A DNA stretch of 64,000 nt from Xanthostigma xanthostigma. Taxonomy: Eukaryota > Arthropoda > Insecta > Raphidioptera > Raphidiidae. Positions 8,801 through 45,217 of this stretch are shown here, piece after piece. Under the pieces are notes generated by a model, which saw nothing but the letters and a program-made list of their open reading frames with translations, made no database searches and was not told the origin of the DNA. The stretch's first letter is position 1. Each line of letters starts with the position of its first letter. The translations under genes were made by a program, and so were the position numbers. The stretch spans positions 35,558,001 through 35,622,000 of the forward strand of contig OY754466.1 in the NCBI GenBank assembly GCA_963575645.1, in the 5' to 3' direction.

Positions 8801-11800
8801 CAGGGTGTCCCATTTTAAAGTAGTCACCCTTATATCTTCGTTATTTTTGAAGATAGAAAAACAAACAAATACTTATTAGATAACTTCAAGTGTCAATTTT
8901 CATTGCTTTATGAAACACACACACACACCCAACACTTTGAGACATAAATCAGACCGTGCAACCTCCCCCTGGTATATCTTGGGTAATGCTAATGCCAGCG
9001 GTAAAAAACGATTATTACCACGATAAAAACGGCGCAAATCGAAAAATGTTTCAAACACTTTTTCTCCTCTATCGAATGGGATAATAAAAAGTATAGGTTT
9101 CCACTTAAAAAAAAACACAGTTTAGATATGCGCCATCTATCGGGATGTTCATGTGTGCATATTATTTCCCCTTCCAAACTTAGCGACTTTTATTTGGAGA
9201 ATTATTTTCTATCTTCAAAAATAACGGAGATATAAAGGTGGCTACTTTAAAATGGGACATATATAGCTGATAAAAATTCGACCGCGGGCCGTATAGCTGA
9301 TGAATTTGACCGCGGGCCAAAAATTTGCAGAACAAAAAAAAAAGGTCCTCACATTCTATTTCCGCATTTCGAGATTGCTATTTCTTAACTATTTTTTTAA
9401 AATTTGTAAAATGCTTCGCGGGTCGGACAAAATTGTGCTGCGGGCCCGATGCGGCCCGCGGGCCTCTATTTGCCCAGGCCTGGTGTATACTTTATAACGT
9501 GTATACGACATTTAATTTAATACTTCTTTATCTTAAAGCTCAGCGTTGCTTTTTACCATTCCTACCCAATACCATTCCCCAATGGTTTAGTTTAGGTCAA
9601 AAATCACTTTTCAAAAATTTTACACTTTCCGTTTGAGGTCCCCCGAATCCAAAAAACAAATTTTTGAAAAAACTCTGTGTGTCTGTTAGTCTGTGAACAC
9701 GATACAGATCAAACGGATGAGCGGATTGAAACCAAATTTTGAGAGGATGTTTGGAATGCAAATGGGAAAAGCCTTATTGTTTTTGGGGAAAATCGGCGCA
9801 TGCGCAGAAGAGATATATGCTATAACGGTATTTTTTATATAATAATGGTATACTTTTCATAACGGCTTATCATTCTATTTATTGTTTCAAGAAAGTTTCG
9901 TTAACATTTTTTTTATCTAAACTTTATAGTTTCGGAAATATTTGAAAATAAAAAAAATCAGCAGCTCTTTTGTTTTACGGATCTGTCAGAAATTCGGCAT
10001 GCTTCGATTAATTTTTACAGCAAATATCATATTGAACACTATCCATTACCCGCGTCACCTCACGCGATATCAAATTTTATTTTCTTTATTTTAATCAAAT
10101 GTCAACATTTTTGAAGTTGGAAATGGCCCCGTCGCCCAATTGGCTGGAATTTTTTGTAAATAAAATAATTTTTGTGCTGCAGGTCATGGAAGCGTACACA
10201 AATTGTCGACAGTTCAACTGCGTCACTCCAATCATGGAACAGGCTGAGTATCATATGTTCTGCAGAGAAAAAACGGAACTGTACATGCCGGAATTGTATA
10301 ACAAAATAGGAGTAGGTCAGTAAAAAGGGTCCAATATTAAAAGCATAATAAATTCTGCCATAACTTGACAGGCTCAGCGTGACCATGTTTAAAAAAAAAA
10401 TTGGTTGTCTGTAAAGTCGGTTTACGGACGATAGTTTTACGTGATAACGTATTCCGCTCGAAAATCATATTTAATAATACATAACCTAAATTTTAGTAGC
10501 TGTCAAACTATATTTTTACCGACTAATAATTTAATCAACCAAAGCAAAATACATATTTTTAAGCAATTATAAAAGACATTTAAAAGAATGTATATATATT
10601 ATATATTTGTTAACAAACCGTATAATTTATCTGCTGTTATGAAATGCAGATCCATTATCGTGCGTTCAGTTATACTTTGGCTTGGATGAATCGGCAATAA
10701 TTATATGACACAAAAAATATCCGTGCAAAAACGAACAAATAACGATGTATTATCTGAAAAATTGCTTTAAAAATTCGATAATTTATGACATTTTTATTAG
10801 ATATCTTGATTTTAAGTCTTAATTTCCACGGTTTATAAAACAAAGGCCATCTGTCAGATGTAGCTTTCGCTGGAACAGCCGAAAAAAATGTTGAACGCAC
10901 ACTACTGTCTGACGTCACGCGAGAAGAGTGAAATGCGTACAAGCCGACGCCGATCGTGCTTCTCTATCGCTTATGATGCGCTCTCGCTTGCACGCGCAGG
11001 GTCAGGCAGAACGTTACGGCGTTACACTTTTTCGTGCGTGCAGCTGGTGTTTTCATCAATTTATAAGACGTTATCACGTCAAAAACATTAATAGTACTCA
11101 AAAGTCGCTCGATTCGTTATGACTTAAAGAATGTATTTTTTAAAACAGGTTTAATGGCGTGGGCTCCAATCACAATGGGGATACCCCAGAAGGACGACAG
11201 CACTCACCTGTTTCAACGTTCTAGCTTTAAAAACAAATACAGTTCATTCTCATGGACCGAAGATGAAACCGTCGCAGCGAACAAAGAAGTGAGAAAGCTA
11301 GTTGTTTTGTTTCATTTGTGTTACCAATTTTCCGATTGTTTATATTCGTTTAACATTGAACTAATTGATACACATATTATATTAAACACAAATACGCTTG
11401 TTTCCACATAACAAAACACTATCACTGTATAGTGTATTGATAGATTGTTTGTACAACTAAACACTGCATGGAAAACCAGTAACACTGATGACCTCAGCTG
11501 TTGAGCGTCTATATATTCTATATACGACACTATTTTGAACAACACTCAATCGTTATATTTCTGTTTGATGTTTAAACTTACATTTAAAAAATTTATTAGC
11601 ATGCAATGATTTGTAATGTTTGGTTAAAAAAAACAATGACTTGTAATTAAAGAATTATACAGAATGCAGTTTAAAGTTTGCAGTATTGTCTTGCAGGAAT
11701 GGAGTTTAGTGTGGTTTGTTTAGTGTGGTGTTATGATTTGTTGATTTTGCGGCTGATGTAGAGCTTCACATGGTTGAAGGATCGGCTGCAGCCAGAAGAA

Positions 11801-14203
11801 ACAACGCGACGACATTCGGACAAAGTGAGAGACATCGCCAACCTGGCTGAGAAGCTAGGGTGTTCTGTCTCGCAGCTTGCAGTCGCCTGGTGCCTCAAGA
11901 ATGAATCCGTACAGTGCCTATTGCTTGGGGCTTCCACTGTTGAACAGCTTTACGAAAGTATTCAGTCTTTGCAGGTATCTATCTAGTATCTATACACAGT
12001 ACCTATAAAACGAAGCCTCGGCTAATCGGCTAATCTAGAGAACTACTGAACATACAGTGTAAACTCTATATAACGACACTCAAAGGACTGTGCACTTTGT
12101 GGCGTTATTGAGAGTTGTTAAACGGAGAGAAGAAATAATCTATTAATATTTTTTTGCTATAATATGCATTTACGCATAATATCGTCTTATGTGCAAAAAG
12201 TAAAATTTGCAGGAAAGGCCAAAAAGTGGTTATTTCAGCAATGGATGGTAAGAACTAGCAATTTCAGAGGTATATTACTAATTCATACTTATCTTCACTA
12301 TACGTGTTTAATTAAGACGAAGTATTTTCTTAAAAAATATTTAACGTTAATTTTCGATTTATTGGCACATGGGAAGAATTATTTGATACAACTTTTCACA
12401 AAAGAGTTACTTCCCCTTGTTGGTTACTGTAAAATTAATTTGGAGGTATTACTAGTGTATAGAGCTCGTTTCCTGAATCTTTTCATCTAAAAAACGTGAA
12501 ATCTGCCAATTATGCACATAAGAGCTATTACAGAACCAAGGACGATATATTAAATTTACAACTGACCAACAAACAGCTGGGCTAAACATAATGAAAGATA
12601 ATCCCAACAAACAAAAAAACGAATTTCTTAGAATCTTTGGTAGGTATGCATGATATCGACAAAGCAACAAAATAACAAACAAGTACTGTTTATTGCTTAA
12701 TGATGACGTATTGTTGTCGTTATTTAGAGTGGGTTTTTCGTTATTCAGAGTGTATCATTGTATGAGCAACAAGGTAAACCAACTAGAGTTAAGTAATTTC
12801 GATGTTTTACGAAGTTTGTCCTTATATCGAGTGACGTTAAATGGAGTTTACACTGTATTTGAATGTTCACCATTCGATAGCTTATTAAGACCGCTGCACA
12901 CGATGCTGGTTTTGCCGCTAGATTCGTTGCTTGGTTCCCAGCGTTCTGTGGCGCTGAATTTCATAATGATTTTTATGTGTTGGCTCCGCACGATGCGTGT
13001 TTGAATCTGGATTTGTTGATGGTTTTAGTGCGGCGCAGTGACAGTTTGAATGTTAACAAAAGTGGACGTTTATTGTCTCCGAACAGAACACACGTTATGA
13101 CGCCATGTTTGTTTTGAGGCGTTTGCTCATGTCCACGTGACAAGATAATGTTTTCTGATTAGTTCTTGTTCAAAACAAACGCAAAAAATAGCCCCGGTTT
13201 TAATTTTGAAATTCAGCTCTAACCACGCACGCGAGCCCGCAATGACGTAATTTCCATTCTCGTTAGGGCTTCACACGAGACGAGAGTAGACGAGACTATC
13301 AAAAATCTCGTCTCGGTCTCGTCAATCCCTAGAAAATTCAGTCTCGTTCAAGTCTCGGTCTCGTCTCGTTACCAGATGTCTCGTCTCGTCTCGCTTAATT
13401 TTAAATAATGAACATATACTTAACCGAGAGTGCGGTAACTCATCGATATTAAAAAAAAAATCATTCAAACTTAAGATATAGAAATTTGCAAGGATAAATA
13501 TTTATGATAAAAGATACGTTACAATAAGAAGTGTTAACAAGTTGAAGTAAGAATGTGAAAAAATCATACTCTGTTGAGTTTTTTTTAAATTTACTATAAA
13601 ATAGGTATGTCACAGATGGTCACCAGATTTTATATTTTGTAAAATATATTGTTTTTTATTTCGACCTTTTCTAATTTTTCCAATAAAAACTTTATAAAAA
13701 AAAATTTAACGAGACCATAAACGAGACTCTCGGGTTGCACTGTATGTGGTCTCGGTATCGTCCAAAATATTTACCAAAACGTATCGTCTCGTCTCGTCTC
13801 GCTTTTCCGAGACGAGAACGAGACGAGACGAGAAAAATCTCGCTCTCGTGTGAAGCCCTAATTCTCGTAGCCAGCACAAGTCCCAGTAGTGATTTCAGCG
13901 GCAAAAGCAGCCTCATGTGCAACAACCTTTAATTAAGGGAAGTTCAGATCTATACTAGCTTATTATTCCGGCTTCACCCGAGTGCAAATCGAATTGATTT
14001 CAAGTCGAATTGAAATCAAGTTTATGTCAAAAGTGATGTGTATTTGTATATCTTTAAAGGCAATTGTTATTGATATATATTAATAATAACATAATTTTCA
14101 GCTATTACCAAAATTGAATAGTGCCACAATGGTGGAAATTGAGCGAATTTTAGAAAATAAACCAACTCGACCGCCAATGGTGTCAACCCTGGCACTTAGA
14201 TGA
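2857..14203 (+). CDS. Hk: Hyperkinetic, voltage-gated K+ channel beta subunit (5'-partial)
   Basis: Eight exons: 2857-2967, 4434-4521, 6242-6369, 8265-8344, 10183-10315, 11149-11288, 11762-11974 and 14102-14203, all with GT-AG borders and matching phases; 995 bases plus one upstream base give 331 codons and TGA. The protein is the aldo-keto reductase domain of Kv-beta subunits, cytoplasmic proteins that bind the T1 tetramer of Shaker-family channels and hold NADP(H). Recognisable in order: [105 protein letters not shown] and ENKP.RPPM.STLALR. This is closest to insect Hk. The lysine of the KIYW motif is kept, but the position of the catalytic tyrosine of mammalian Kv-beta2 is His. Mammalian Kv-beta2 has 367 residues; only the short N-terminus is missing here. 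Introns are loaded with MITEs. Confidence 0.95.
3793..4365. repeat. ~570-bp inverted-repeat element, family A copy 1
   Basis: Begins TGCCCATATTCACCGAAC and ends with near-exact reverse complement GTTCGGTGAATATGGCCA. A diverged second copy is at 61801-62368, sharing internal blocks such as ATCCTAACCCAATTGCACAC. No coding capacity seen. Superfamily unknown. Confidence 0.55.
6550..6984. mobile_element. Harbinger-like MITE, copy 1
   Basis: Terminal inverted repeat of the form AGGCCGCTGCACACGAGGC at both ends (left end mutated to ACGCCGCTTCACACGAGGC), flanked by TAA on both sides. Full relatives are at 12888-13928, 41229-41637, 42061-42631 and 56190-56627. A 3-bp TWA duplication is typical of PIF/Harbinger. 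Shared internal blocks include a GGTGCGCGCG stretch and a TGACGTCA-like palindrome near the right end. Confidence 0.6.
7005..7500. repeat. ~205-bp tandem repeat with 21-bp subrepeats
   Basis: The motif CGA(C)CCGTAC recurs at 7061, 7269 and 7469, so the unit is about 200-208 bases with two full copies and a partial one. The first unit starts with about three 21-base subrepeats around CATATCGACCCGTACTTCC. Units differ by scattered substitutions and small indels. The array abuts the MITE at 6550-6984. Confidence 0.65.
7130..7586 (-). pseudogene. Unrecognised repetitive ORF or decayed exon
   Basis: The minus strand of the tandem array is open from about 7586 to the stop at 7130 (~150 codons). 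The first ATG is at 7441, but an acceptor-like CAACACAG lies just upstream of the open stretch. The protein repeats a ~69-residue unit: a Tyr/Gly-rich segment ([11 protein letters not shown]), then [26 protein letters not shown] and LLNFEHN. A third unit continues below 7130 but is frame-shifted, indicating decay. I recognise no family. It could be an exon of an unknown gene, a captured gene fragment in a transposon, or repeat DNA open by chance; the repeated unit kept in frame favours a coding origin. Confidence 0.3.
8366..8666. mobile_element. pogo/Tigger-like MITE (Tc1/mariner), copy 1
   Basis: Ends CAGTAGAATCT...AGAGGTTCTGCTG flanked by TA on both sides (8364-8365, 8667-8668). Interior is rich in TCGAG/TCGAC blocks. 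An inverted second copy is at 58025-58326. The termini resemble pogo/Tigger elements; no transposase is present. Confidence 0.6.
8706..8782. repeat. Perfect 38-bp inverted repeat hairpin
   Basis: Two 38-base arms pair perfectly around a single central base (8744). The arms start AGGCCTAGTTTATATGAGAG and reach a GC-rich tip made of ACGCGCGTTGG. It lies in an Hk intron between two MITEs. No mismatch in either arm suggests recent origin or gene conversion. Confidence 0.92.
8801..9258. mobile_element. Tc1/mariner-type inverted-repeat MITE
   Basis: Left end CAGGGTGTCCCATTTTAAAG follows TA. The right end is its reverse complement (CTTTAAAATGGGACA), and the arms stay complementary for about 60 bases around ATATCTTCGTTATTTTTGAAG. 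The last few right-terminal bases are lost. The terminus resembles that of 30161-30876. Confidence 0.6.
9262..9482. repeat. GC-rich hAT-like end fragment
   Basis: Contains repeated GACCGCGGGCC blocks and ends GCGGGCCTCTATTTGCCCAGGCCTG, an arrangement common at ends of hAT-type MITEs. No matching left terminus or target duplication found. Confidence 0.35.
9640..9870. repeat. Interspersed repeat with CGCATGCGC core
   Basis: Reverse-complement relative of the array at 51000-51500: it shares CGGCGCATGCGCAGAAGAGATATAT, the GGGGAAAA run beside it, and the tail around CAGATCAAACGGATGAGCGG. A similar tail occurs in the loop of the foldback at 30161-30876. Superfamily unknown. Confidence 0.45.
10395..11085. 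repeat. Probable interspersed element bounded by ACGTGATAACGT inverted motifs
   Basis: ACGTGATAACGT near 10439 and its reverse complement ACGTTATCACGT near 11069 bracket a block with a GC-rich, CpG-containing 3' third (10910-11060) unlike the flanking intron. It looks like an inserted repeat. It sits between Hk exons 5 and 6 and no host coding sequence is seen in it. Confidence 0.35.
12055..12855. mobile_element. Tc1/mariner-pogo-like element relic (801 bp)
   Basis: Left end CAGTGTAAACTCTATATAACG after TA (12053-12054); right end is its approximate reverse complement ending GGAGTTTACACTG before TA (12856-12857). Interior holds only short unrelated ORFs. The right end nearly touches the Harbinger-like element at 12888. 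Confidence 0.55.
12888..13928. mobile_element. Harbinger-like MITE, copy 2, interrupted
   Basis: AGACCGCTGCACACGATGC at the left end, right end CATGTGCAACAACCT, TTA on both sides. It is split by a complete hAT MITE at 13264-13860; without it the length is about 440 bases, matching the other copies. Confidence 0.6.
13264..13860. mobile_element. hAT MITE nested in the Harbinger-like element
   Basis: Termini TAGGGCTTCACACGAG and CTCGTGTGAAGCCCTA are exact inverted repeats, flanked by identical 8-bp duplications ATTCTCGT (13256-13263 and 13861-13868). Both ends are enriched in GAGACGAGACGAG-type simple repeats on opposite strands, so the element can fold. Confidence 0.8.
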
Positions 14204-14429
14204 CAATCAATGTGCCCACCGGGCTCCATTAGGTAAACACTTTTGATACCCCAAAAAAAAAAATGTTTTTCAGATATCGTCTAAAAGTAGGTCCTATGAA
14301 TATGATTCGTTTGAAACGTCATTCATTTGATATTAAATCCATGTATCTTGATCTGTCCGTGGAAATAATTTTATTTTTCCATTTAAAAATGGGTAGTATT
14401 TAAACGAGTGCCTGTAAATTACAATTTTG

Positions 14430-15080
14430 GGTGACAAAAATAATCAATTTGGGTTACTGTATTACTAAGTGAGCGACTGACTGCGTGTGACGACAAAATA
14501 ATAGTTGGGTGACTGAATTACTAAGTGAGCGACTAGAATGCCTTCGGTAATTTTGAAGCAGATATCTTCAACCGATTGAGATGAAAATTTGCATACACGT
14601 TTAGTTTGGATGACAATGCATGGTTAGCTGTGTGACGTCACTCTAAATCCAATATGGCGGACTTCTAAAGATGGCAGACTAATTTTATTATGCTTTCCTA
14701 CAATATGGGTATCAAATGAAAGGGCTTGCTGAGAATAACTCGAAAAATAAAGTGACGTCACTCTGAATATTGGTTTTAGAGTGACGTCACTTTATTTTTC
14801 GAGTTATTCATTTGATACCCATATTGTAGGAAAGCATAATAAAATTAGTCCGCCATCTTTAGAAGTCCGCCATATTGGATTTAGAGTGACGTCACACAGC
14901 TAACCATGCATTGTCATCCAAACTAAACGTGTATACAAATTTTCATCTCAATCGGTTGAAGATATCTGCTTCAAAATTACCGAAGGCATTCTAGTCGCTC
15001 ACTTATTAATTTAGTCACCCAACTATTATTTTAATATCTCAAGTTATTAAAACAGTATCTCATTATCAGTCACCAAGTTT
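14430..15080. mobile_element. Foldback element with TGACGTCA arms
   Basis: Two ~260-base arms (about 14500-14765 and 14775-15035) are near-perfect reverse complements around a short loop at ~14770. They share CCGCCATATTGGATTTAGAG, repeated GTGACGTCAC palindromes and ATCTTCAACCGATTGAGATG. One arm lacks about 16 bases near 14800. The same arm sequence is expanded into a satellite at 50041-50860. Confidence 0.8.
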
Positions 15081-15346
15081 TTTTTTTATTCGACCGTTTT
15101 ATAATTCCCCTTTAAAAATGTATCATCAGCGTCAGAGTTTTGTGTTCAAAAACGTAACTTATTATTCCATTTTCAGCATGCGTTAATAATTTTTATAATA
15201 CAAAATTCATTAATCCGACAATTCTATGAATGGCATGTTCTGTAATCCGCCGGAGTGTAAGAAATTTTAAAAAATAATTCAAATCGGGCATTGCATACAC
15301 TTCAAATTTTATTTCTTTTTGAAGTGTATTTAACCATTGTCTAGGT

Positions 15347-15859
15347 CAGAGGTTCCCAAACTTTTTTGTCTCGTAGACCACTTCCCATGATTTTCGGTTT
15401 TGGGTAGACCCCCGGCTTATCTGATATTGATTTTTTGCAAATTCATTAATTTCAAATGTATTTTTGACAACCGGTATAGTGCTACTCATTTTCAATGATT
15501 TAAATTTATAACGGTAGTGAAATTTAGTGTGAAATGTTTAGTTTTATACATTTATTAATTAGATTCAAATTAAACGAATCAAATTAATATTTACTTTCTG
15601 TTACATAAAATAACTAAGCAAAAAATAAATGCTTTTAGTGTGAGGGATCAACATTATTTTGGCATCAATTTACTTAGATTTAATCTTAAATCTCTTCGGT
15701 TAACGACGTCTAGTTTGTTTCTTTTTTTGTTAGGAGATTCACTATCGTTGACCCCCATTTTCATTTCATGGACCCCCAATTTTTTTCCCGCTTACATGGA
15801 CCCCTTGCAAGTTGTCGTCGACCCCTGGGGGTCGATATAGACCACTTTGGGAATCACTG
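15347..15859. mobile_element. hAT MITE, complete (513 bp)
   Basis: Starts CAGAGGTTCCCAAACTTTTT, ends AAAGTGGTCTATATCG-type complement closing in CACTG, and is flanked by identical 8-bp duplications GTCTAGGT (15339-15346 and 15860-15867). An intact right end of a sister copy is at 1-76. Confidence 0.88.
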
Positions 15860-16017
15860 GTCTAGGTGAAGAACCAAAAGAATATTATTTTGGTTTTAAT
15901 GAAAAATGATACTTTGTTTTAATTGCTATCGACCTAAATTTTACAGTTGACTAAATTTCAACTAGGAACGTTGATTTTTTTGTCGCGATACATAATTATG
16001 TGACAAATAATAAAAAC

Positions 16018-16440
16018 ACTTGAAAATTCTACAAAATATTTTCTCTCTCAACAATCGTTTCAGACTATCAGTGCATCTTCAGAAGTACCTACTCTTGAAG
16101 ACAAGGGCGTAGATATGTGGGGGGGAGGGTAAAGGGGGTAATTACCCCCCCCCAGGACCATAATAATCAAAAATATAAATATTAGGAATACCTAACAGAA
16201 AATAAAGTTTAGAAATACTTCTTGAAAAAAATTTGGAAAATTAGTTTGGGAATTAATATTTTACTTGACACCTTCCTTCGTGAATATTCTTGTGTAATAT
16301 TAAAAAAACTTAAAAAAATATTATTTTTTTTTGCTTTACAAACCTCCTCCCCCCCTCAAATATCTACGACCTTGCCTGAAGATGGACTGATTGTCTGAAA
16401 CGATTATCGAGAGAGAAAATATTTGACAGAATTTTCAAGT
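16018..16440. mobile_element. Foldback MITE, interrupted
   Basis: ACTTGAAAATTCTACAAAATA at the left and its reverse complement at the right; the arms extend to CAATCGTTTCAGAC / GTCTGAAACGATTATCG. The loop is interrupted by the hAT MITE at 16102-16374. It ends 110 bases before the Hk 3' exon. Confidence 0.65.
16102..16374. mobile_element. hAT MITE nested in foldback
   Basis: Termini CAAGGGCGTAGATAT and ATATCTACGACCTTG, flanked by CTTGAAGA / CCTGAAGA (7 of 8 bases identical). G-run on the left and C-run on the right arm. Confidence 0.65.
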
Positions 16441-16974
16441 GCCGAGTGGAAAAATCATTGCAAATTATAATCATGTGATTTTAATTAATTTATAGGCCGG
16501 TTTATAAAGTAATTTTTATTATATCTTATTTGATAAAATATCTATACAGGTGAAATTGTATTGGGTTACAGCGGGGGTCAAGGTGGGCCGAGTAGCGTGG
16601 AAAGTCCAAAAGAGATCGATGAGATCAGCAACGCCGAAACGGAAACTAAAGAAAGTCAAAAACTTCCGTTCTGCGAAATCCAGTGACAAAAGATGACCGA
16701 GTTAATGAAAACTCGCAAATTTAGGAAAAAATCGTTGCCGAGTCCGGATGAGAAATCTTTAAAATCGCCAGAAGACGGTCCTGCAATCGGAGGTGGTCAA
16801 GTGGTCACTGCTAAGAAACTTGACAAGTGCAGCGATCCATGTCCAGTGCAGGTATGAAACCGGGAGGCCGTGGTCAAAACACGCTGATCTCTATTTTTGC
16901 AGCCGCCTCAGAAGACGACGGCTGTTGTGTTGCCTGTTGGTGCTGCCGAAACGTTGCTTTGAAATAATAATAAT

Positions 16975-16980
16975 AATAAA
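16975..16980 (+). terminator. Hk: Candidate polyadenylation signal of Hk
   Basis: AATAAA in an AATAAT run, 13 bases after the last TGA of the extended frame. It is the first such hexamer after the last recognisable exon; cleavage site not determinable. Confidence 0.35.
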
Positions 16981-18208
16981 TACATGCATCCATACATACA
17001 TTGTAGAGTATGTATTAGTAGGTGCCGGCTTACCGACACAAATTATGATACACTGACTAAACCAGACACATAGTAGTCGATATAAGCGTTATTATTACTA
17101 AAAATGTTTATTAAATTATTCATTCATCAACTTTTTATTGCCATGCCAAATTAGTCTTATCGACTTCTTGACTATTTAGTAATTTCAGAACATATTCATT
17201 ATCTGCCTTTTGCCTTGCTCTTTTACCAATATATTATTATTATATAAATATTAAATAGGTACTTAAAAATCGGCTGTATGTTATAAAAATTATAATCATT
17301 ACCGACACAATGTCACTGTACTGGCCGTTATCAAGAAATTCAATATTATTATAAACATTCAACAAAATGATTTATTAATTAATATTTAATACTATATTAA
17401 TGAAGAAAAATTGTTTTACAATTTTCATTAAGATTGCTTGTTATTCTGTACATAGGTATTAATAAATAAATAAATAAACAAATAAATACACAACAATTAT
17501 AATAAATTAACCAGTCATACAACACGATCGTGGTCATACAATAATGCAATATGGTTTCAAATAAATTATAATTATTATATCGAGATTGATATAATTCCGA
17601 TTGTGTAAATAGGACGACACTGAATATTTAATGACAAATCTAAGTGAAGCTGAAGAGGACATTACAGTATTTTGTGTAAAATTAAACTACATATTTCAAC
17701 AGTTGATAAAATGAATGTACGAAATCAAAAACAGTTTATTGTAGGTTTATATGAAAAACATAGACAATACACTTTTGTAAATTGTAAATACACATTTTAA
17801 CACCAGAAAATGAAAGGTTTTCCTATTTATAAGCATGCCGTATAATATTATGTAAATTCAAATGATCAATCATAAATCAATTCATGGAACATGCAAAATG
17901 TTTAAATGATAAAAAATTTATATTTTGTATGAGTCGTTGTGATTCATTGATATTTTCTGAAAATATTGTCAATATAAAATTGGGATATTACCAGGAGGTG
18001 GAGTCCGTTTCAAAATATTCAATATGGCCGCCCTATGCGAAGCGTTAGCATTGGCAATATACTACGTTTCGATGTTTTATTTAAAATGAGGAAGAAATTT
18101 GTCGTTGCGGTGATACTAATTCTTCAAATGATAACTATACTAAAGGGAAAAAAGTGCTCTTCACATCGTAAAATATGGCAGAGTCATTGGTGCAAACTGT
18201 AGTGATAA

Positions 18209-18564
18209 GGTATGTTCCGAAATATAACCCAGACACTGGCCAGTGCTAATGACGTCATGAATCCGAAGCCATAATTGTACTGGTGTGCCACCATATTGTA
18301 CTGGTGAGACAGATGTGACGTAGTATAAATATTTAACCGGATGTGTGTGCATCAAACTTTGTGGAATTTTTTATTTTATTATTTTTGTTATTTGCAATAT
18401 GTAATGTCTGCTCAACAAAGTAAACAATTACCTTTGGTGGACGAGGGAAATAATAATACGTCAACGCGCTGGCTAGTATATTTCGGAACGAATCAACAGT
18501 ATGGCGTTGATTCATGACGTCATAAGCGCTGGCCAGTTTACTGAATTAAATTTCGGAACACACC
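18209..18564. mobile_element. Inverted-repeat MITE with TGACGTCA motifs
   Basis: Left end GGTATGTTCCGAAATATAA and right end AATTTCGGAACACACC are inverted; further in, CTGGCCAGTGCTAATGACGTCATGAATC pairs with GATTCATGACGTCATAAGCGCTGGCCAG. Superfamily not resolved. Confidence 0.7.
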
Positions 18565-19143
18565 CAAGGTTAACTTTGTTGCAAATGACAAAAATCAACG
18601 GTGTATAATCAGCTGATAGCTGTCAATTTTCAATTTAATAATTTGATATCAATATTCACACTTAATCTACTAACACAATTAGATACTGCACAACACATGT
18701 CATGTTTCTTCTTCGATTTTTCAACGACGTGTGTAACTTTCATAATAACCAATTAGATATTTTAAAAAATACGTTGCGCCCAATGCTTTACTAGGTATAT
18801 GAGACGCTTCGCATAGGATAGTTCACTGAAATGCCGAGTAAATGGTCGACATTAAATTCCAGTTAGCTAATCTGTAATACCTATTTCACTTTCAAAGTTG
18901 GACTTTTACTTGCCTTCAACAGCCCTACCATAACTTTACTGTCATTCAGTTTTTACTTTTTTCCAGTGTAATTGGCTGCGTACTGTACATTAAATTTTAA
19001 AAAAGTCAAGATTTTTATTATAATTAACGATATTTCATTAAGAAAATCGTAAATTACCGATTTAAATAGTTTATCGATTTATATAGGAATGCTATTCGTT
19101 AGTTTATTATGGAAGCTAGTACCTACGTGTAAGTAGTATAAGT

Positions 19144-19222
19144 AGGTCGCTACACACGAGGCTGGTTTTGCCGCTAGATTCGTTGCTACGTTCCAAGCGT
19201 GCGGTAGCGCTGAATTTCGTCA
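19144..19222. repeat. Harbinger-like MITE, left-end fragment
   Basis: GTCGCTACACACGAGGCTGG followed by TTTTGCCGCTAGATTCGTTGC matches the left end of the copy at 12888-13928. The rest is missing. Confidence 0.5.
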
Positions 19223-22200
19223 CATCAGGATATTGGGAGTTTCAGGTTTGAATCCTGACGTTGACAAATGTTTAATAAAATATTTCCTGTTCGCAATGAG
19301 TATGAATATGAGCCGATTGAAAAAATTTGTACAATCGAATTTAAATATGGTTTTCTAGAAAATGTCAATAAATCTGCAAACTGAAGACAAAATAAATAAA
19401 AATATTTTTCCATTGAATAATTAATAACTTTATTATTGTGTTATTTTATTTAAAAACTACAAATTTGTGATAATAGAAATTAATAGATATTATAATCAAT
19501 AAGGTGTATGGCAGAGAAATATCTCGCACGTCTACGTGTTTGAAATGATCCAACGACATAGAGAGCCTGGTAAGTCTATGATAATGCATAATATGGTTAT
19601 GAGTGATGAGACCGTGAAAAACATACATTACCTATTATTATTATTGTGTAATTAATATGTTTATAATATTATTACGGCCTTCTTTTATTTAATGCTATAT
19701 TGTCCATTTGAATAATTGATAAAATTTCATTTAAATTTCGTAAAAAATTTAATCAGGAAATAAAATTATAAGATTTATTTAATTAATCAAAAATGCATTA
19801 TGTTTCACGATAGATAGAATTTCGTCCTTAAAAGAAACAATAATAAAGTAATATATTTGATAATTATATAAAATATTTAAAAGAAATTTGATTTAGAGCA
19901 ATTTTTATCCCGCGCTACATTGATAAAACATAAGTATAATAAACGAAATGCATAGCTCACAGTTTATTTAATTACTTGTCTTTATAATTAACCATTTTTA
20001 TGTAAGAACTGCCGTATTTAATTTGTTGTAAGATCTCAGTACAGCTTTGTAAATATTTCGCAAGCTTCAAATAATTAACCTGCAAATTGCAGGTTGTTAG
20101 ATTAATTTCAAAATATCTCAATGCGACTCAGAAATATCAGAACATGAAATCTTTGGAGAGCCTCCACCATCTCAGTAATAATAAATTCAAAAATATATCA
20201 AAACAGAAGAGAAACACTATTTTAATTTATACTGTAAAGTATAATATCAACGAATTAAAAGATAAAATTGGTCTATACCTACTCAGAAAGGAAAACGTTA
20301 AACTATTCTCTTTTAAAATATCCGTTACAAATCCTTTTTAAATAAAACACCAAAAAAATAGTTTTAACATGAGTGATAAATGTAATCTCATTAATAAAAT
20401 CAGCAAACGAGACTATATTAATTCATATTAGTTAAAATTAATGAAAATTGAAAATTATATGCTTTATAAATAATGTCTAATAAAGTTTAAATTTTAACCG
20501 TTTTCGTTAACTTTAACGAACAGCGAAAAGTGAATCTGTGTAGTTCTGAAAATAAATGAATTTGAATAGTTTTGTTATTATTCAGTTGATGTCATAAATT
20601 GTTATTCAGTCAAAGAAACAAAGCTAACAATCTTGGTTTAGTTATATACACATTATATTTTATATTACTTAACACAATTTCTTTATTGTGTTGCAAAATT
20701 CACTTATCGTGAATTTAAATTATTTTTTAAATTGGTATCGGTTTATAGTTTGTAATATTTTTGTTTCCTATGGGCTATGCCATGAAAAACATCTCGTAAG
20801 TATTGTGCTCTAAACAAATCGTATAACAATGGCGTATATAATAATATATAGGCTGCCCAGCAACAATAATTAGAGATTATCATTATAAAGTTTGTAATTA
20901 AATTTGCTACATAAATTACCTATAAACAAACAAATATAATTATTATGTAAGGTTCTTAACAATAAACACGAATGTTTAAAAAGTTAGTCTTGACTCTCAA
21001 AGTGTGATCTGAAAACTCATTAACTAATATTTATATAAATTATTTATAATATTTATAATTATGCTGCTTTTGCATGCATTCAGTATAGAGCAAAGCTACT
21101 ACCTATACAAGTTGCGTAATTGAGAAAAAAAAGGAATATTATATTAATAGAAATATTTCAACCAAGTTTTTATTGATAATGTTTTAAATAGTAGCTTGAT
21201 AAAGAAATTTATAATGGTTATAAGTACTCCCATATGTTTCAATTTTTAATATTTATTATACAAATATAATTATATTATTATAATTAGAGGTATTGAGCGT
21301 GCCAAGTATGGTTTAATTTGTCATTTTATTTGTCCGTAACTGAAATAGAGGCAAAAGATTGAAAATATAATGACTTTTTAAACGATATTTCGATACTTAA
21401 TACTTTTTCAATTTACAAAGAAAAATAGTAATAATTATAAAAATGATATATAAATACTTATCTATTTATGAGTGAACAGTTTTAAGTAGAGACTTGAATC
21501 TTGTGATAATTAGAGTCAGTTCTTATAGTTCATAACTGCGAATTTGTATCTTAAATTAAAGCATGTGCAAAGTCTAAAAGATCTATGTTTCTATGCGGCA
21601 TAGAAATATAGATTTTTTACTTACAGCAATCTACAGTACTGGATTAGATTATAGACGCTCAACATCTAAGGTTATCAGCGTCTATTACAGTACTGGAGCT
21701 AAAAGTTATATCTGACAACACCGCGCTATTACCACATACACAAGACTAGACAAGGGATAATGAGAAATGTAATATAGTTGGTTACCTAAGTTGATTGGTT
21801 TTTATAGAAAAACACGCGATATGACATTTTTTCTCCTTATGGCATGCATTCTTTTTAAATTCCAGATCCCTCGGAAATACAAAACCTCTATAATTTGAAT
21901 ATGTGCGATTTATTATTTTAATGAAATGTGCACAGACTAGTTGTCAAGCAGTCAAGTTTGACAGGACCCAGCTTTACTAAACTATAAGTTCGGACTCTAC
22001 TGTCATTTTTAAGTTGTTTTCTTATAGTTTAATTATATTATTTATTTGCTCCTTAAATGATTTTTAAGTTTTACCTATGTTTCTGGGGAATTTATATGAT
22101 TGTACAAATGTTACACAAACAATGTAAAATATTTATATTGTAAATGAATATTTATCCACATCACAACTTACACCTGTGCAAGGATTATTGTAAAAAAAAA

Positions 22201-22796
22201 ACAATGTTGTTATTGCCAAGTATGCACAGACAAATTGTTATTGTAAATCCTTATCTCTAAAACATTTCAGTTTTCACATGAACTCGATAAAATCTGTATA
22301 TTAATAATTTTGTCTATTGTACTCAAATTTCTTTGCTCAACAATTGATTGTACTCAAAGTTATAAACTTGTGGATTGAGTTTTTTGAGTCTGAGATTTTC
22401 TAATAAAATATTTAAAAAAATACTAAGTGTTTTACTCACCGGTTTTAGTGCCTTGAATTAGTACATAGTACCTATTTTAATTAAAATAATAACATTAATT
22501 TCTATAACACTAAGTCCAGTCTATGTTGATACTAAACAGCTGAGATCAACGTTTATAAACCGGTCTATAATTTAAATCATTGTTGGTACGGTGTGAGTTT
22601 TGTTTTTTACAGTTGGCTTTCTAGTGACTTTTTGTAGTAAGTTATAACTTGTAAGTTTGGTAGCAACAAAACGTGACAGTATTCGGACATTTCAGATGTG
22701 TATGGTGTGCGAAGCAGCTATTTATAGAAATTTCAAGAAAACATAGAAAATTGTTATTTGTAAATCTATTTTCTATATTTGTATATTTAAAATAAA

Positions 22797-25700
22797 ATGT
22801 CAGATCGTTCACGGTATTATGATGGTGATTACGGTGGAAGTCGACGTAGTGGAATTGATGAACCTCAGAACTCAAGACTTTTCATCGTCTGTAATAAACA
22901 ACTGACTGAAGATGATTTTCGCAATGCATTTTCAAAATTTGGAGAAATTGAGGAAATTTGGGTAGTGAAAGATAGAGTTACAGGAGAAAGAAAAGGTAAC
23001 TTCATATCTAGTGTGTGATTTAATTACAGATTGATGATACATTATTTGCTTTCCATTGCTAAAAATCGCAATAACTTTCACTTATGATTAGCATCATTCT
23101 TATTGCTTGAGGGCTTTTCTGATGGAATGTCTAGTTGCAATGTATTCATATTATATGTATATCGTCATATGTACACATCTCTGCACACATTTTGTAATAA
23201 CATATATTTTTTTTTATCAATTTTTAATCTATAACATGATTTGGGGATATAATGGAATTTTCTCTCCAGTGCTAACCGCAATTACAAGAATTTAGAGTTT
23301 ATAATTATTTTGTTTCCCATAATTTATGTTATCGAATATACCAGGGATCAGCAACACATCAATCAGGATTCCGATTTTGGTCACTCGCTGAAAGATTTTA
23401 AAATTGTTTTTGTTCAATATTTCAAACCAACGATTGTCATAACACTCTCCACCTAGTAGAGCTTACAAACATTTTTGGGTAGGTATTTGATACAGTGTAA
23501 AAATACACTTTTGTAATGTCTGAACAAAATCAACGACACTGAAAGGTAGTGGGGTCTAGTCAAACCGTGAATTTTTTACTTTGGTAAATGTTATTTGCAA
23601 AAAAGTCCTTGAGGCATTGTGAAATTTTAAATTTAGTATTTAATAAAATAAAAAATAAATAAGTCAGATCATTTAGCCAGGTGTAAATGTCTGCCAAGCG
23701 GTAACAAAACTATCTATTATACGTAAGTACGAGTAAGATGCTACGGGTAGGTTTAAATGTGAGAGAAAGCGTATGTGGGTTGAGTTGAAGTGTGCTGCAG
23801 TGTGATATATGCCGTACACTCCCTCTCATACTTCAACCTACCCGTAGCATCTTACCCGTACTCACATTTAATAGATAGTGTTGTTATCGCTTGGCAGGCA
23901 TTAGACCCAGCTAAATGATCTGACTTATTTATTTTTTATTTCATTAACTACTAAATTTCAAGGTATTAAAATTTCAAATTGCCTCAAGGACTTTTTTTGT
24001 AAATAAAATCTTGTAAAGTTAAAAATTCATAGCTTGCCTAGGCCTCAATACCCTTCAGCCCGGTCTTCGATTTTCTGTTTGGGCATTACAAAAGAAGTTT
24101 TACACAAATTTTCACGCTCCCTCAAATACCCACCCAATAATATTTTGATAGCTCTTGGACTAAAAAGGATTCGTAGATTAGAACTTTAATCATACAGATA
24201 GATCTTTGATAATCAGCAAACTTGTTATGTAGTTCCTACCGCTTGGATTTTTGTCTTCTGTTCATCTCATAGTTGACCGAACCTATCCAAATGCCGGGAC
24301 TCCAAGCTAGAGACATGTCAGTCCGCCCTTGTGGGTACCATAAGTTCATCTATGCGGTCTAGTTGCTGATCCCTGATTTAAATATGAATTAAATTTTTTG
24401 CGTTTTGTTTGCTAGTTTTTATTGTATTGAAAAAATCATTTTGAAGGTGTCACATACATCAAATTTTCAAAAACATCTGAAGCTGCAGCTGCAATGGAAG
24501 AAATGAACGGTAAGACAATCGGTAGTTGTCCTCGGCATATAAAAGTAATGATTGCCGCTAGCCGCGACCAAGGATCCAAACGCGAAGGTAATGAGGAGGA
24601 ACGAATGCTTCGACTGTTTATAATTGTACCGAAATCAATGACAGATGAAGAGTTGACGGAGCATTTTAAACAGTTTGGAGAAATTGATTATGCGTCTGTC
24701 ATTAGAGATAAAGAGACCAAAGAAAGTAAAGGATTTGCGTACATTAAATATTTTAAGTGAGTACACAATGCAAACAATTTAAGTATGTTTGTTTCCATTT
24801 CCCAGATACTTAACTCCCACAAATCACATTCACATTAGCTGTTCATAGTTAAAGTCGATGTTACGATTTTATTTAAAAATTATTTTTGTTGTTAGGAACG
24901 AACGTTCTGTAATGACCGTTTTCTGATGTACATTCGATGTCTCTTTGACACTTTCAATCTTATTTTATTTAAGGCAAGGCTTATATTGAGACGCGTGTGA
25001 AGCGCGGTTATTCTCATATTTCATCGTAGTGCAGTGGCAACAGCCCCGGATCTATGATTTTTTCGAACCGGGCAGAAACTTGATTCTGGCGCCTCCTCTC
25101 TCCAGCGTTTGAGATAAATTACTTTAAAAAAACTCACAAATAAAGGGTGGGCCAGAAAGGCGTGCGATTTTAAAAACACTCTTGCGTTTGAACCTTATGA
25201 GAGGGGGCTGCGCGGGTAGTGGGGTTGGGAAGCTCGGTTCTCGGAAATTTAGTCGTGATGGATCACTTCACCGGAGCGCAACGTGCATTCTGCGTTAAAC
25301 ATTATCACACAAATGGCGATTCGTGCATTATTGTTCGGCGTGAGTTTGGATTACATGACCTAAATCAGTGTCCGAAGGAAAGTGTGATTCGATCGTGGGT
25401 CAGAAAGTTCGAAGCAACTGGTTCGGTTCTCAAACAGAAGCCTGCGGGACGCTCAGGTCAACAAGAACGGAAGACACAATTGAACAAGTTAGAGCTTCAG
25501 TTCAACGTAATCCTGGACTATCGACTCGCAAGCGATCAGCCGATAATATCGATATCATCGATCCATCGCGACTAAATTTCCGAGAACCGAGCTTCTCAAC
25601 CCCACCACCCGCGCAGCCCCCTCTCATAAGGTTCAAACGCAAGAGTGTTTTTAAAATCGCACGCCTTTCTGGCCCACCCTTTATATAAGGGTGCCATCAC

Positions 25701-40300: not shown

Positions 40301-40754
40301 GTTAAAAAAGGGCTCGATGCCGAAATCGAAAATACGCTCTTCTGTAAAGTAGCATCTAGTTTCTAAAATTGCCAGTTGCAAGAAATAAAGCTACTAATTG
40401 CTACTTTAGAGTACAATTAGAACAACTTAATATTATTTGAATATGCAGGGATTTATTGATTGTATAGATATGCTCGACAATTGGGGAATGCTGTGCATTT
40501 CAGGAAAAGTTTATTAAAATAATTTTGGTGGGCTGAATGCATAAAATCGTACTTCAAGGGAAATGGAATAGGTACAAGGCAAAATAATAACAATACTGTT
40601 ATTTGCTGCAGAAGCTTCGCCTGTTGGTGTCCTATAAGGCGCTCGAATTTAGTAGACGGGCACTGTTTTGTTATGTAAAAATAGTTCGTGTGGTTTAATT
40701 CGATATCAATTGAAACGTAATAATTGTTTTTTTTTTTTTTAGTGTCACTCATGA
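37309..40754 (+). promoter_or_regulatory. pum: Upstream ORF overlapping the pum start (after splicing)
   Basis: If 37338 is joined to 40743, ATG 37309 opens a 13-codon uORF (MVETPQKPLQCHS) whose TGA (40752-40754) overlaps the main ATG as ATGA. Such an overlap favours termination-reinitiation control. It depends wholly on the inferred splice. Confidence 0.3.
37339..40742. other. Inferred first pum intron, no gene recognised
   Basis: AT-rich with a few chance ORFs under 115 codons; no element with clear termini identified. Confidence 0.4.
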
Positions 40755-43700
40755 AGTGGCCAAGCAGCAACGGAAACGGCGGCGGTGGCATGGTGTCTGG
40801 GGGTTCTGGAGCTGTGGCTGAACCCGTACTCGTTGACGCCGGAGGTGTGGCCGGAACGGCAATCAGTCAGGCTCAGCAACGTTCTCAAGATGATGCGGCT
40901 GTAGGATATGTATTTCAGAGGCCGCCGGATCCGGAATTTCCACTTTATGGTCCGAAACAAGCTCGCTGGGCACTCGGCGATGACAGTATCATTGATGTAA
41001 GAACAATAAAATACTTGATCTTGTATATAGTTCAAGAGCTATCCAACATTTTTGGGTAGGTATGTATTAAAATTTCAAAATGCATCAAGGTATTGTGCAA
41101 ATAAAATTTCGGAAAGTAATAAAGCTGTTACACAAATTTTCACGGTACCTACCTCAAATATCTACCCAAAAAAGTTTGATAGCTCTCCTTCTAATAGTTT
41201 TTAAGATATTTAGTACTTACCAAAGTAAAGGCCACTGTACACGAGGCTAGAAACGCTGCTAGATTTGCCTACTAGTTTTCTAGCGCTGGTTTTCTTGATT
41301 GCTGTTAAGTGCTCGCTTCACACGAGATTATTTTTAAGCGTGTTTTGTGGATAGGTTTGGTGCGCGCGCAGTGACAGTTCGAATATAAACACAGAGCAAA
41401 ACGTGTCTGTTGTCTGGCAGAACGACGCCATGTGGGTGTCCAAGTGCCCGCGTGAAGATACTGCTTCCTAATTGGTTCTTGCTCACACCTAGCAACAAAT
41501 CTAGCAGGGAAAATTGCCCCTGTTCTAATTTTAAAACCTATCTTCTGAGCTAGTAAGGCAGCCCGCAGTGACGTCATTTTCAGCTTCGTTCCCAACCTAC
41601 CGGCTAGCAGCATTTCTAGCCTTGTGTGCAGCGGCCTTAATACTCCGAAAGAAAAAGTAATTTGCGCTGTTTACAATATCTATCTTGTCCGAGTTGTGTC
41701 AAACCGTTTTGTTGGTTAAATAATCCAGAATCTAGATGAGAACCAAAAGACAACATAAACTGTAAACACAGCTCGAATGCTCTATCTAAAAAAATGTGTT
41801 CGGGAATTAGAAAAGGGGTGAGAAACTAGAACTACTATTATACAACGCATGCGCATAATGGTTTCACTATTAAAATAACATGCATGTCATGTGTCATACA
41901 GTCTGTACCTAATTGGCTGACTTTTTTGACTGATAGTCGACCAGAACTTTTGACAAATGCTGTTAGATATGTTTATGGTTTGTATACTTTTTTGTGTTAT
42001 TCTTTTACTACAGACACAACCGGATATACTTCTTATAGCAGAAGTATTTTATTAGTATAAAGACCGCTGCACACGAGACTGATTTTGCTGCTAGGTTTCA
42101 AGCTGAATTTCGTGATGGATTATATGCGTTCGCTTCACGCGATGCCCGTTTTAAAGCTAGTTTTGCCGATGGGTTTGGTGCGCGCGCAGTGATAATTCGA
42201 ATGTTAACAAAAGTTAATGTTTTCAAATCGACAATTTTATTTATTTGAAGAGTTCTATTCAGACGTTAATCAAAGATTTGAAAAGTTAATGTTTTCAAAT
42301 CGACAATTTTATTTATTTGAAGAGTTCTATTCAGACGTTAATCAAAGATTTGAAAAGTTAATGTTTATTGTCTCTTAACAGAGCACACACTGTGACGCCA
42401 TGTTTGTTTGTGGGCATTCGCCCATATCGCCCACATGGCAAGATACTGTTTTCTGATTGATTTTGCACAAAACAAGCAGACAAACAAGAGCAAAAAGTAG
42501 CCCCGATTGTAATTTTGAAATCAATCTTGTGATCACAACGCGAGCCCGCAGTGACGTCATGTCCGTATTCGTAGCCAGCGCAAGTCCCAGCAGTGATTCC
42601 AGCGGTAAAACAATTCTCGTGTGTAGCGGCTTTTATTTTCCATTTGTTGCGCGTTTAACCTCACTGAAAAAGAAATTATTTATGTTCAAGTGTAATAACT
42701 AATGTCATACTACAACATCGGTCATGGTAATTTTTTGTACCTTCACCAGAACTACTTCTTAAATCTTAAACTGACTATTCTCTTATTGTTAAAACAACAC
42801 GAAGTAAATTATATGGATCCAATTCATCAGCTATCAGTATGTGATACAAATAAATCTGTAAATTTGGTCGATGTCGTCCTAACCTAAAAATAAGTACATA
42901 TTTCCATTTTCTCTTATTTTTAGTTAATTCTTTTTTAGTTTTGCTATGGAAATATCTGTTATCCTACAACGCTAGAAAACAGAGGAGCACTAGATTAACA
43001 AAAAGTAACTCATGCACTTTCCAGTATGTGCTGCACCTGGCATCAATTCATAAACTATAAGACGTTTAAATGCCCGTTTCCTCGAAATTAACAATTTGAA
43101 GATACTGGTTTTAGACCAAGACGGCATTATACGTAAATTAGTATACAGAATATATCTAACTCCGCTGTTTGAAACAATGCTATAGACCTTTTCAGAGTTA
43201 ACATTTTTTGTGCGCATGTTTCAACTTCTTGCCTTATTTTTCGGGCACTTTTCATGTTAACAGGTAGAAAGTTATTAATTTAAAAAAAGTATATAGTAAT
43301 TAAATAAAAATATTATTTAAAGAAAGAATACAATCTAAAAAAATATTTAAATACTTTTGAAAATACATTTTTCGGCAATCAACGGTTTATAACGGTAGGA
43401 CTAACCTTTCAACCAGCTTTAGTTTACATTCACCATTTTTTCCAATAATAGCACTTCAACCGCCGTCTCAATTGAGGCACAAATGTGTTCTTCTACTGTT
43501 TTGTGCAATAATTTAACATCGTCAGTAATATTTTCGTCTAAATTAGCATTGAAAAAACGTTACTTGGCCAGCTATTGCGTCAAAAAGTGCCCGAAACTTT
43601 TAAATACTGTGATAACCATATAGAGACGACGCTTGCTTGTGAAAACGATGAAAAACCTTATTGTTGTTGGGTGTCATATAATTTTCCGGCAGCTTTGATC

Positions 43701-45217
43701 ACTATGATCAGCACAAACAGCATCTCAGCCCATAATTAAGCGGGATAAAAAGTAGCCTACACAATAATCTTTGGGTGTCAGTGTGCATCTTACTAAGTTT
43801 CATCAAAATTGGTTCAGTAATTCTTGATTGATGTGCAAATATACCAAGACGGAAAATACCTAAAAAAAGAACTTAGAGACGGAGTTGTTTTGCAATTTTA
43901 TATATTAGTATTGTTAAAAACAGTCGAGGATTAATGAGGATGGGCACTGCCAAACTTGATCGCTAGAGACGTCAGACTTATAATATAACCACCTCAATTT
44001 GTGGACCATTTATTGTACCTATACTGTGTACAAAATAAGTTTATTTAAAATAATAAATCATTGACAATGCCGATGTGTTATGTTTATCAATGTTCAAATT
44101 ATAAAGGTTTTGTATTTCCAAAGGATTCGGAACTAAAAAAGAAGTGGTTGCATGCTATCAGAAGGAAAAAAGCGCGTTTTCCTATAAAAACCAATCATAA
44201 CTTAGGCAGCTATTAGTGATGTGCCGGATATCCGTATCCGCGGATGTCCGAGGGAGAAGAAAGATCCGTATCCGTTAGTTTTTGGCGGATCTTTTACAGT
44301 ATTAATTTTCAATTCATAGATGAAGTTTTATATATATAGGTGATCAGGTAATAATGAAAACCTGTTAAATTCCATTCAGATTATTTTTTATTTTTTTTAA
44401 TCGTATGTGGCACCTTAATATTGCAAACATTTATCGTAGTGAGTACCATACTAATAGTACATAACTCAAAGGTACTAAATCAACTATCTTTATAATGAGA
44501 TATTGCACATCGATCTTTGGAAAGAGACAATCTGTTATGAGAGTTAACTCTTAAAAAGGTCAATAACTTTTTCCCATAACAGATAGTCTCTTTCCAAAGG
44601 TCGATGTGCAATATTTACCGCCGCGTACTCTAAGAAAGTTAAGATCCGTATCCGTATCCGCGGATCTTGAAACCAAAAATCCGTATTCAGATCCGTATCC
44701 ACGGATATGCATTTTTAACGATCCGGCACATCACTAGTAGCTATATACCTGCTGTCATCTATATTAACGTTTCTCATGTACCCATCTCCATTCAAACTGT
44801 TGTTAGTAAAATCTACAGTAAATTTATTTTGTATCTTTGCAGAATCACGATAAATGGAAGTACACTGTACCAACAAAAATGACACCAGAAGCTCAATTGG
44901 CCGCAACATCGATCGGCTTGTACGATCCCAGTGCCATGCTTCAACAAACATTGGGCGTGAACATTGGTAAGCAACCGCAAACACCCCAGCAGCCTTTGAA
45001 TCAGGCTCAACAGCAACAGTTGAGCCAGGCGCAACAACAGTTGGCACAACAACTAACTCCCGAACAACAACAGCAACTGATTTACCATATGGCGCCACCT
45101 CACGGTTTGGGTCTGCCGTTGGGATTGCACCAGCAGTACGTGCAGAACTGCATGGCGCCACCTCCATTGCAGCCGCAACAACAGCAGCAGCAGCTCGCCC
45201 CGTCGCAGCATATGCAG
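40751..45217 (+). CDS. pum: Pumilio N-terminal region (3'-partial)
   Basis: Two coding exons: 40743-40996 (ATG at 40751) and 44843-45217, joined at phase 0, 207 codons. Residues 1-43 are Gly/Ser/Ala-rich. Residues 44-58 (RSQDDAAVGYVFQRP), 72-77 (RWALGD) and 83-89 (NHDKWKY) match the conserved N-terminal boxes of insect and vertebrate Pumilio. The second exon then has a long Gln-rich low-complexity tract (about 135-205), as in insect Pum. Pumilio is a cytoplasmic translational repressor that binds UGUA-containing 3' UTRs through C-terminal PUF repeats; those exons are not in the window, so they lie beyond 64000 or after a long intron. The intron 40997-44842 holds four transposons and a THAP relic; a hAT MITE ends 106 bases before the second exon. 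The exon ends at CATATGCAG/GTCAGT, phase 0. Confidence 0.92.
41033..41188. repeat. Short foldback related to the 23342 element
   Basis: AGAGCTATCCAACATTTTTGGGTAGGTA pairs imperfectly with TCTACCCAAAAAAGTTTGATAGCTCT. It shares TTGGGTAGGTAT and the ATCAAGG / AAATTTC blocks with the foldback at 23342-24375. Confidence 0.4.
41229..41637. mobile_element. Harbinger-like MITE, copy 3
   Basis: AGGCCACTGTACACGAGGC at the left, GCCTTGTGTGCAGCGGCCT at the right, TAA on both sides. Close to the copy at 6550. Confidence 0.65.
42061..42631. mobile_element. Harbinger-like MITE, copy 4, with internal tandem duplication
   Basis: AGACCGCTGCACACGAGAC at the left after TAA; right end CTCGTGTGTAGCGGCT. Longer than its sisters because of the 72-bp duplication at 42209-42352. 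Confidence 0.6.
42209..42352. repeat. Exact 72-bp tandem duplication
   Basis: Two consecutive identical units starting AAAAGTTAATGTTTTCAAAT, followed by the first bases of a third. Part of the unit (GACAATTTTATTTATTTGAAG and the next ~35 bases) also occurs at 53970-54030 beside another hairpin. Confidence 0.9.
43745..43920. repeat. Interspersed repeat tail (type uncertain)
   Basis: The run AAAAGTAGCCTACACAATAATC, then TAAGTTTCATCAAAATTGGTTCAG, resembles 3' tails of interspersed repeats common in insects. No termini found; the class is a guess. Confidence 0.3.
44067..44213 (+). pseudogene. THAP-domain relic, cut by a hAT MITE
   Basis: Forty-nine codons: MPMCYVYQCSNYKGFVFP, then KDSELKKKWLHAIRRKKARF. 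The C-x4-C pair followed by F.FPKD.EL.KKWL.AIRR is the N-terminal half of a THAP zinc-binding domain, found in P-element-type transposases and host THAP proteins. The frame ends at a TAG made of the first three bases of the hAT MITE at 44214. Joining across the insertion gives no clear C-x2-H, so the second half of the finger is degraded or absent. Probably a transposase remnant in the pum intron; a captured host exon is possible. Confidence 0.55.
44214..44736. mobile_element. hAT MITE of the GATGTGCCGGA family, copy 2
   Basis: TAGTGATGTGCCGGATATCC to ATCCGGCACATCACTA; flanks GCAGCTAT / GTAGCTAT (7 of 8). Near-identical in layout to 35332-35848, so both are recent. It sits 106 bases before the second pum exon. 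Confidence 0.9.

Follow-up and report, generated by a model that had tools for sequence, protein, structure and literature searches.

A candidate stop-codon readthrough extension of Hk in Xanthostigma xanthostigma, with a predicted hairpin assembled by splicing

In Drosophila, dfr (vvl) combines a UAG stop codon and a leaky hexamer with a proximal hairpin; this element spans +9 to +59, and the distance and stability of its hairpin matter, according to a 2026 study (PMC13170385). Six hairpins from genes with conservation-predicted readthrough were tested there in a reporter that retained the dfr stop and hexamer, and that of Drosophila Hk was one of two giving 4-5x dfr readthrough in S2 cells (PMC13170385). 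In plant viruses CARYYA serves as a readthrough motif, with natural viral Type I (tobamovirus) cases of stop-CARYYA generally using UAG and with readthrough structures lying ‘around 8 nt’ past the stop (PMC3542737); in an OPRL1 reporter the hexamer was about equally effective after UGA and UAG (PMC4132726). As of 2015, FlyBase listed 22 cases of double readthrough in flies (PMC4528330), and 35 candidates are described for Anopheles, 13 of them with adjacent stops (PMC5100048). Here we describe a locus resembling these systems in a window of 64,000 nt from Xanthostigma xanthostigma (OY754466.1:35,558,001-35,622,000, forward strand; all positions are relative to the window), where the gene that we assign to Hk reaches a TGA stop codon, TGA1, beyond which its frame could continue through a second stop, TGA2.

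A first-pass annotation of this DNA, made from the letters alone, had suggested that Hk has a C-terminal extension through two in-frame TGA-C stops. This idea gives the best fit to what we found: an open frame, a coding-like second part, a readthrough hexamer and a predicted hairpin. We consider it probable, judging from sequence, that Hk makes a second form with a longer tail by programmed stop-codon readthrough. We infer that the acceptor at 16572 is used and that both stops can be passed, with readthrough of TGA2 more doubtful than that of TGA1. Readthrough of this kind is already known, and Hk itself is a Drosophila readthrough candidate; the new points would be the second TGA-C, an intron within the extension and a hairpin assembled by splicing. 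We take the ‘Hk’ of the 2026 study to be Hyperkinetic, a word indexed once for that paper; its main text writes ‘Hk’ and does not contain the full word.

The canonical end of the gene and the proposed extension are laid out as follows.

11762-11974, + strand: phase-0 coding exon of Hk (Kv-beta), 71 codons; matches Kv-beta2 and PF00248 jointly with the next exon
14102-14203, + strand: final coding exon of canonical Hk, closed by TGA1 (14201-14203); translation ends ...MVSTLALR, then stop
14204-14209, + strand: CAATCA directly after TGA1, fitting the CARYYA readthrough hexamer
14233-16571, + strand: proposed 2339-base intron from the TGA1 exon to the extension exon, GT at 14233 and AG at 16570-16571
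16550-16571, + strand: stretch added by the competing acceptor 16550; in translation it shuts the frame with AGG TGA
16572-16683, + strand: extension part A, open in the Hk frame; 47 codons together with 14204-14232
16684-16686, + strand: TGA2, then CAAAAG
16687-16851, + strand: first 55 codons of extension part B, rich in Lys, Ser and Pro; coding-like jointly with the last 19 codons
16852-16902, + strand: 51-base phase-0 GT..AG intron, GTATGA...TTTTTGCAG; its retention would end the frame immediately (GTA TGA)
16903-16962, + strand: closing 19 codons of the extension, then TGA3 (16960-16962), from translation
16975-16980, + strand: first AATAAA past TGA3

The two last canonical exons matched Pfam PF00248 above its cut-off, and Kv-beta2 made up the 12 best of the 22 PDB sequences matched (E 3.6e-25 to 1.9e-24); the aldo-keto reductase sequence is closest to Kv-beta, and by this likeness we identify the gene as Hk, a Kv-beta subunit. 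Further upstream, the Hk exons at 11148-11290 and 11762-11800 contain resembling stretches of 17 and 14 letters, which by eye apparently correspond to one stretch in Kv-beta2; these neighbours are possibly alternative exons. Many clustered aldo-keto reductase matches also occur elsewhere in the genome, on contig C1:79956270-79993591.

The first-pass annotation had given the frame and its coordinates exactly, from TGA1 and the splice of 14232 to 16572 through 47 codons, TGA2, 55 codons and the 51-base phase-0 intron to the last 19 codons. Given both proposed splices, the Hk frame past TGA1 is thus open for 47 and then 55+19 codons. The donor after 14232 reads TTAG/GTAAAC, and acceptor 16572 yields AG+C. 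Translation also bore out the idea that the acceptor decides the outcome, as 16550 shuts the frame immediately and 16572 leaves it open. Pyrimidine tracts are poor at both acceptors, with 9 of 18 bases at 16550 and 8 of 18 at 16572. The donor of the 51-base intron scored 4.7 (this and the donor scores below come from a generic matrix). The leaky TGA-C context is present at both stops, with CAATCA after TGA1 and CAAAAG after TGA2. The intron at 14233-16571 carries a long, nearly perfect inverted repeat at about 14501-15030, which looks MITE-like by eye; Rfam miRNA models match this repeat below their cut-offs, probably for its hairpin shape alone.

The coding character of the extension was judged with a frame score trained on 45 exon matches from kinase and ion-channel families of the same genome, these being the loci without a stop in the match among 60 (the remaining 15 were excluded). 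This frame-discriminating score on all 45 matches replaced a first codon-versus-composition score based on 23 exon matches, by which the true frame was not ranked first in either Hk exon. On held-out exons, with three draws per exon, it called the frame correctly for 126 of 135 pieces of 47 codons and 134 of 135 pieces of 74 codons. In each part of the extension the Hk frame outscored the other two frames, with -0.2 in part A (others -5.0 and -15.6) and 13.3 in part B (others -10.9 and -15.2). When part B was compared with 4000 dinucleotide shuffles, 146 were open and 10 equalled its coding score, but none did both; for A+B, where a single stop was tolerated, 165 shuffles were open, 21 reached an equal score and again none did both. 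Of 6364 equally long windows taken from the two strands, 81 reached the score; two of the 81 had at most one stop, and both of these fall in long open frames, one at +44861 and one on the minus strand at about 40.5-40.9 kb. Part B is well supported as coding-like.

Base composition changes at the end of the frame. The 369-base extension is 49% GC and the following 738 bases (16963-17700) are 25% GC; more locally, the final 60 bases of the extension are 57% GC, versus 31% in the next 100. Of 3183 windows 340 bases long, 10 attain a GC content of 49%, and nine of these overlie a long open frame, with starts at 44841-45001. Elsewhere in the window, two open frames (40453-41059 and 44822-45292) resemble exons of a presumed Pumilio-type gene; close to the first is a coding-scoring open frame on the minus strand. 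The open frame at 25201-25575 is GC-rich relative to its surroundings and resembles the start of a mariner-type transposase.

The added residues had been described as a disordered tail. This description suits part A, which is Ser/Glu/Gly-rich with a net charge of -5, has 70% disorder-promoting residues and falls on the disordered side of the charge-hydropathy line; part B is borderline, at 61% and on the line. Neither part matched Pfam up to E 1. In a search of the animal's own whole genome the part B tail was single-copy, found at the locus itself only, and pattern searches for its relatives gave 24 matches in viral contigs and 594 in prokaryote genomes, none of them confirmed, as is to be expected of an arthropod tail. 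Being limited to the own genome, viral contigs and prokaryotes, these searches for relatives say little.

Two local signs at TGA1 were missed by the first-pass annotation, the CARYYA hexamer and a predicted hairpin joined by splicing. The hexamer is the same as in Type I readthrough, here after a TGA rather than the UAG usual for natural viral cases. CARYYA follows 9 of the 2350 TGA triplets on both strands of the window, TGA1 included. The hairpin has the following arms.

14214-14227, + strand: 5' arm, GCCCACC-G-GGCTCC, predicted pairing in spliced RNA
16574-16588, + strand: 3' arm, GGGGTC-AA-GGTGGGC, predicted pairing in spliced RNA

The predicted hairpin has 13 pairs, including two G-U, and a 7-base loop, and begins 10 bases past TGA1, that is at +14 with the T of TGA1 as +1. 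Its arms are 2.3 kb apart in the DNA, the 5' arm in the Hk exon and the 3' arm in the extension exon, and the splice junction falls within the apical loop (ATTAG^CG), so that a hairpin at this spacing would form only in spliced RNA. For the first 60 bases past TGA1 the predicted energy is -24.7 kcal/mol spliced versus -10.3 unspliced, and the 13 pairs have probabilities of 0.935-1.0 in a 323-nt spliced context. When 14204-14232 was joined to each AG in 14260-24259 and 60 bases were folded, 16572 gave the lowest energy of 461 sites. By our own version of a published criterion, 12 of the 460 other acceptors would yield a hairpin of this class. With acceptor 16550 the same arms could still pair, across a loop 22 bases larger, and 43 of 200 shuffles folded equally well. 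We regard the hairpin as suggestive; what it adds to the case lies chiefly in where it sits and in the parallel with the fly gene. In assigning readthrough genes we treated a stimulatory RNA structure after the stop as common and not required.

In position, the hairpin start at +14 is close to the dfr element (about +9) and to the viral spacing. Like dfr, the locus has a leaky hexamer and, by prediction, a proximal hairpin, but its stop is TGA and its hairpin would be split by a 2.3-kb intron. Drosophila Hk is the same gene by protein similarity and by name, with predicted readthrough and a hairpin after its stop (PMC13170385). To the first-pass annotation we add that readthrough of the fly gene had already been predicted and that its hairpin was assayed in cells as part of a dfr-based reporter. 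Like the double-readthrough genes of flies and mosquitoes, the locus has two in-frame stops with coding or potentially coding sequence after each; those cases rest on comparative evidence, whereas ours rests on one genome.

Several observations weigh against an extension made by readthrough. Part A is weak when taken alone and not clearly coding: among 4000 dinucleotide shuffles 903 were open, 662 had an equal score and 146 had both, so that the comparison which supports part B well (0 of 4000) does not do so for part A by itself. By the first codon score the Hk frame ranked top of the three frames in part B but second in part A. The hairpin is mildly unusual for its own composition, as 7 of 200 shuffles, and 126 of 3000 in a larger set, fold as well, as do 183 of 3000 in which only the downstream half was shuffled; with 80 bases folded it ranks fifth of the 461 AG sites, and the hairpin criterion admits 386 of 4082 60-mers after + strand stop triplets. 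TGA2 has a C at +4 without the full CARYYA, and no strong hairpin follows it (-8.4 kcal/mol, equalled by 34 of 200 shuffles). Acceptor 16550 competes and shuts the Hk frame, and the 51-base intron is short, the sole other intron inspected measuring about 80 bases by eye. The fly reporter test, for its part, lacked Hk's own stop (PMC13170385).

The main rival is that the exons after 14232 are ordinary Hk 3' untranslated region (UTR) in which the frame is open by chance. That 146 of 4000 shuffles of part A are open and as coding-like makes this part unremarkable alone, the extension contains no Pfam domain, and the feature had been singled out by a reader who scanned 64 kb of sequence. We nevertheless think a plain UTR unlikely, as no shuffle of part B or of A+B matched the real sequence in 4000, GC content drops after TGA3 (from 57% to 31% and then 25%), and neither the CARYYA hexamer nor the position of the hairpin is expected of a UTR. 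The better supported part B could instead be a separate downstream frame starting at the in-frame ATG just past TGA2 (16693, with A at -3) and reached by reinitiation or on another transcript. To this we give a slim chance, since the open, GC-rich part A and both the hexamer and the hairpin at TGA1 would be left unexplained.

The extension might also be an alternative C-terminus reached by splicing around TGA1, and perhaps TGA2, with no readthrough at all. Skipping the exon 14102-14232 and using acceptor 16550 does give an open frame of 48 codons, and a fair donor at 16582 (score 5.6) precedes TGA2. The skip would, however, drop the last 33 residues before the stop, and its frame scored -1.3, where the Hk frame scored 6.3 on that stretch. 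The sole GT before TGA1 in phase with 16572 (14181) scored -6.2 and the sole one in phase with 16550 (14120) scored -5.5, and by eye no clear pyrimidine tract precedes the listed in-phase acceptors past TGA2. We judge such a bypass quite unlikely. All the candidate bypass introns that we listed around the two stops looked poor. RNA editing of TGA1 to TGI (Trp), guided by pairing of exon and intron in the pre-mRNA, seems highly improbable: the pairing probability of the TGA1 adenosine in pre-mRNA is 0.84 for flanks of 100 bases and 0.58 for flanks of 150, but falls to 0.00 for flanks of 60 and is 0.09-0.11 in spliced RNA, and TGA2 (0.18-0.36) would require a different explanation. Both stops are TGA and could in principle encode selenocysteine, which we regard as improbable in the extreme, as none of the nine Rfam matches in 10001-19000 (E of 5 or less) belongs to a SECIS family. 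A selenoprotein was rejected on this absence of a SECIS element in 10001-19000.

Programmed readthrough of TGA1, the explanation we favour, could work as follows. Hk mRNA would be spliced from 14232 to 16572 and from 16851 to 16903, and most ribosomes would terminate at TGA1 to give ordinary Hk. A fraction would read TGA1, aided by CAATCA and the 13-bp hairpin, and add 47 residues: the CAAUCA hexamer would favour decoding of TGA1 by a near-cognate tRNA, and the hairpin, its arms joined by splicing, would slow or perturb termination. Some of these ribosomes may also pass TGA2 (UGA-CAA), adding 74 further residues. A small share of Hk would thereby carry a 47-residue acidic, disordered tail, and a smaller share the additional 74 Lys/Ser/Pro-rich residues; the tail might tune or target the channel complex. 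The two junctions would lie 29 bases (14232-16572) and 309 bases (16851-16903) past TGA1. A junction 29 bases past a stop is nearer than is usually needed to signal junction-based decay. Since the proposed intron would interrupt the hairpin within the apical loop, a single acceptor choice would alone give both the tight hairpin and the open frame. This leads us to speculate that Hk readthrough is gated by splicing, with the level of the long-tailed subunit set by splicing, an idea we put forward tentatively and rate below an even chance.

For readthrough in general, fly ribosome profiling recovered 43 of 283 predicted cases (PMC3840789). Among the literature matches listed, and judged by title and the opening of the abstract, nothing besides PMC13170385 looked relevant to Hk readthrough, and neither the matches for hairpins with exon junctions nor those for Hemiptera looked relevant. 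If our reading is true, readthrough of a nervous-system potassium-channel subunit extends beyond Drosophila, and an RNA structure that drives readthrough needs splicing for its assembly, which would link two regulatory layers usually studied apart. One survey followed unspliced DNA where the 3' UTR was unannotated (PMC5100048). Annotation pipelines that read DNA unspliced past the stop would miss extensions and hairpins of this kind.

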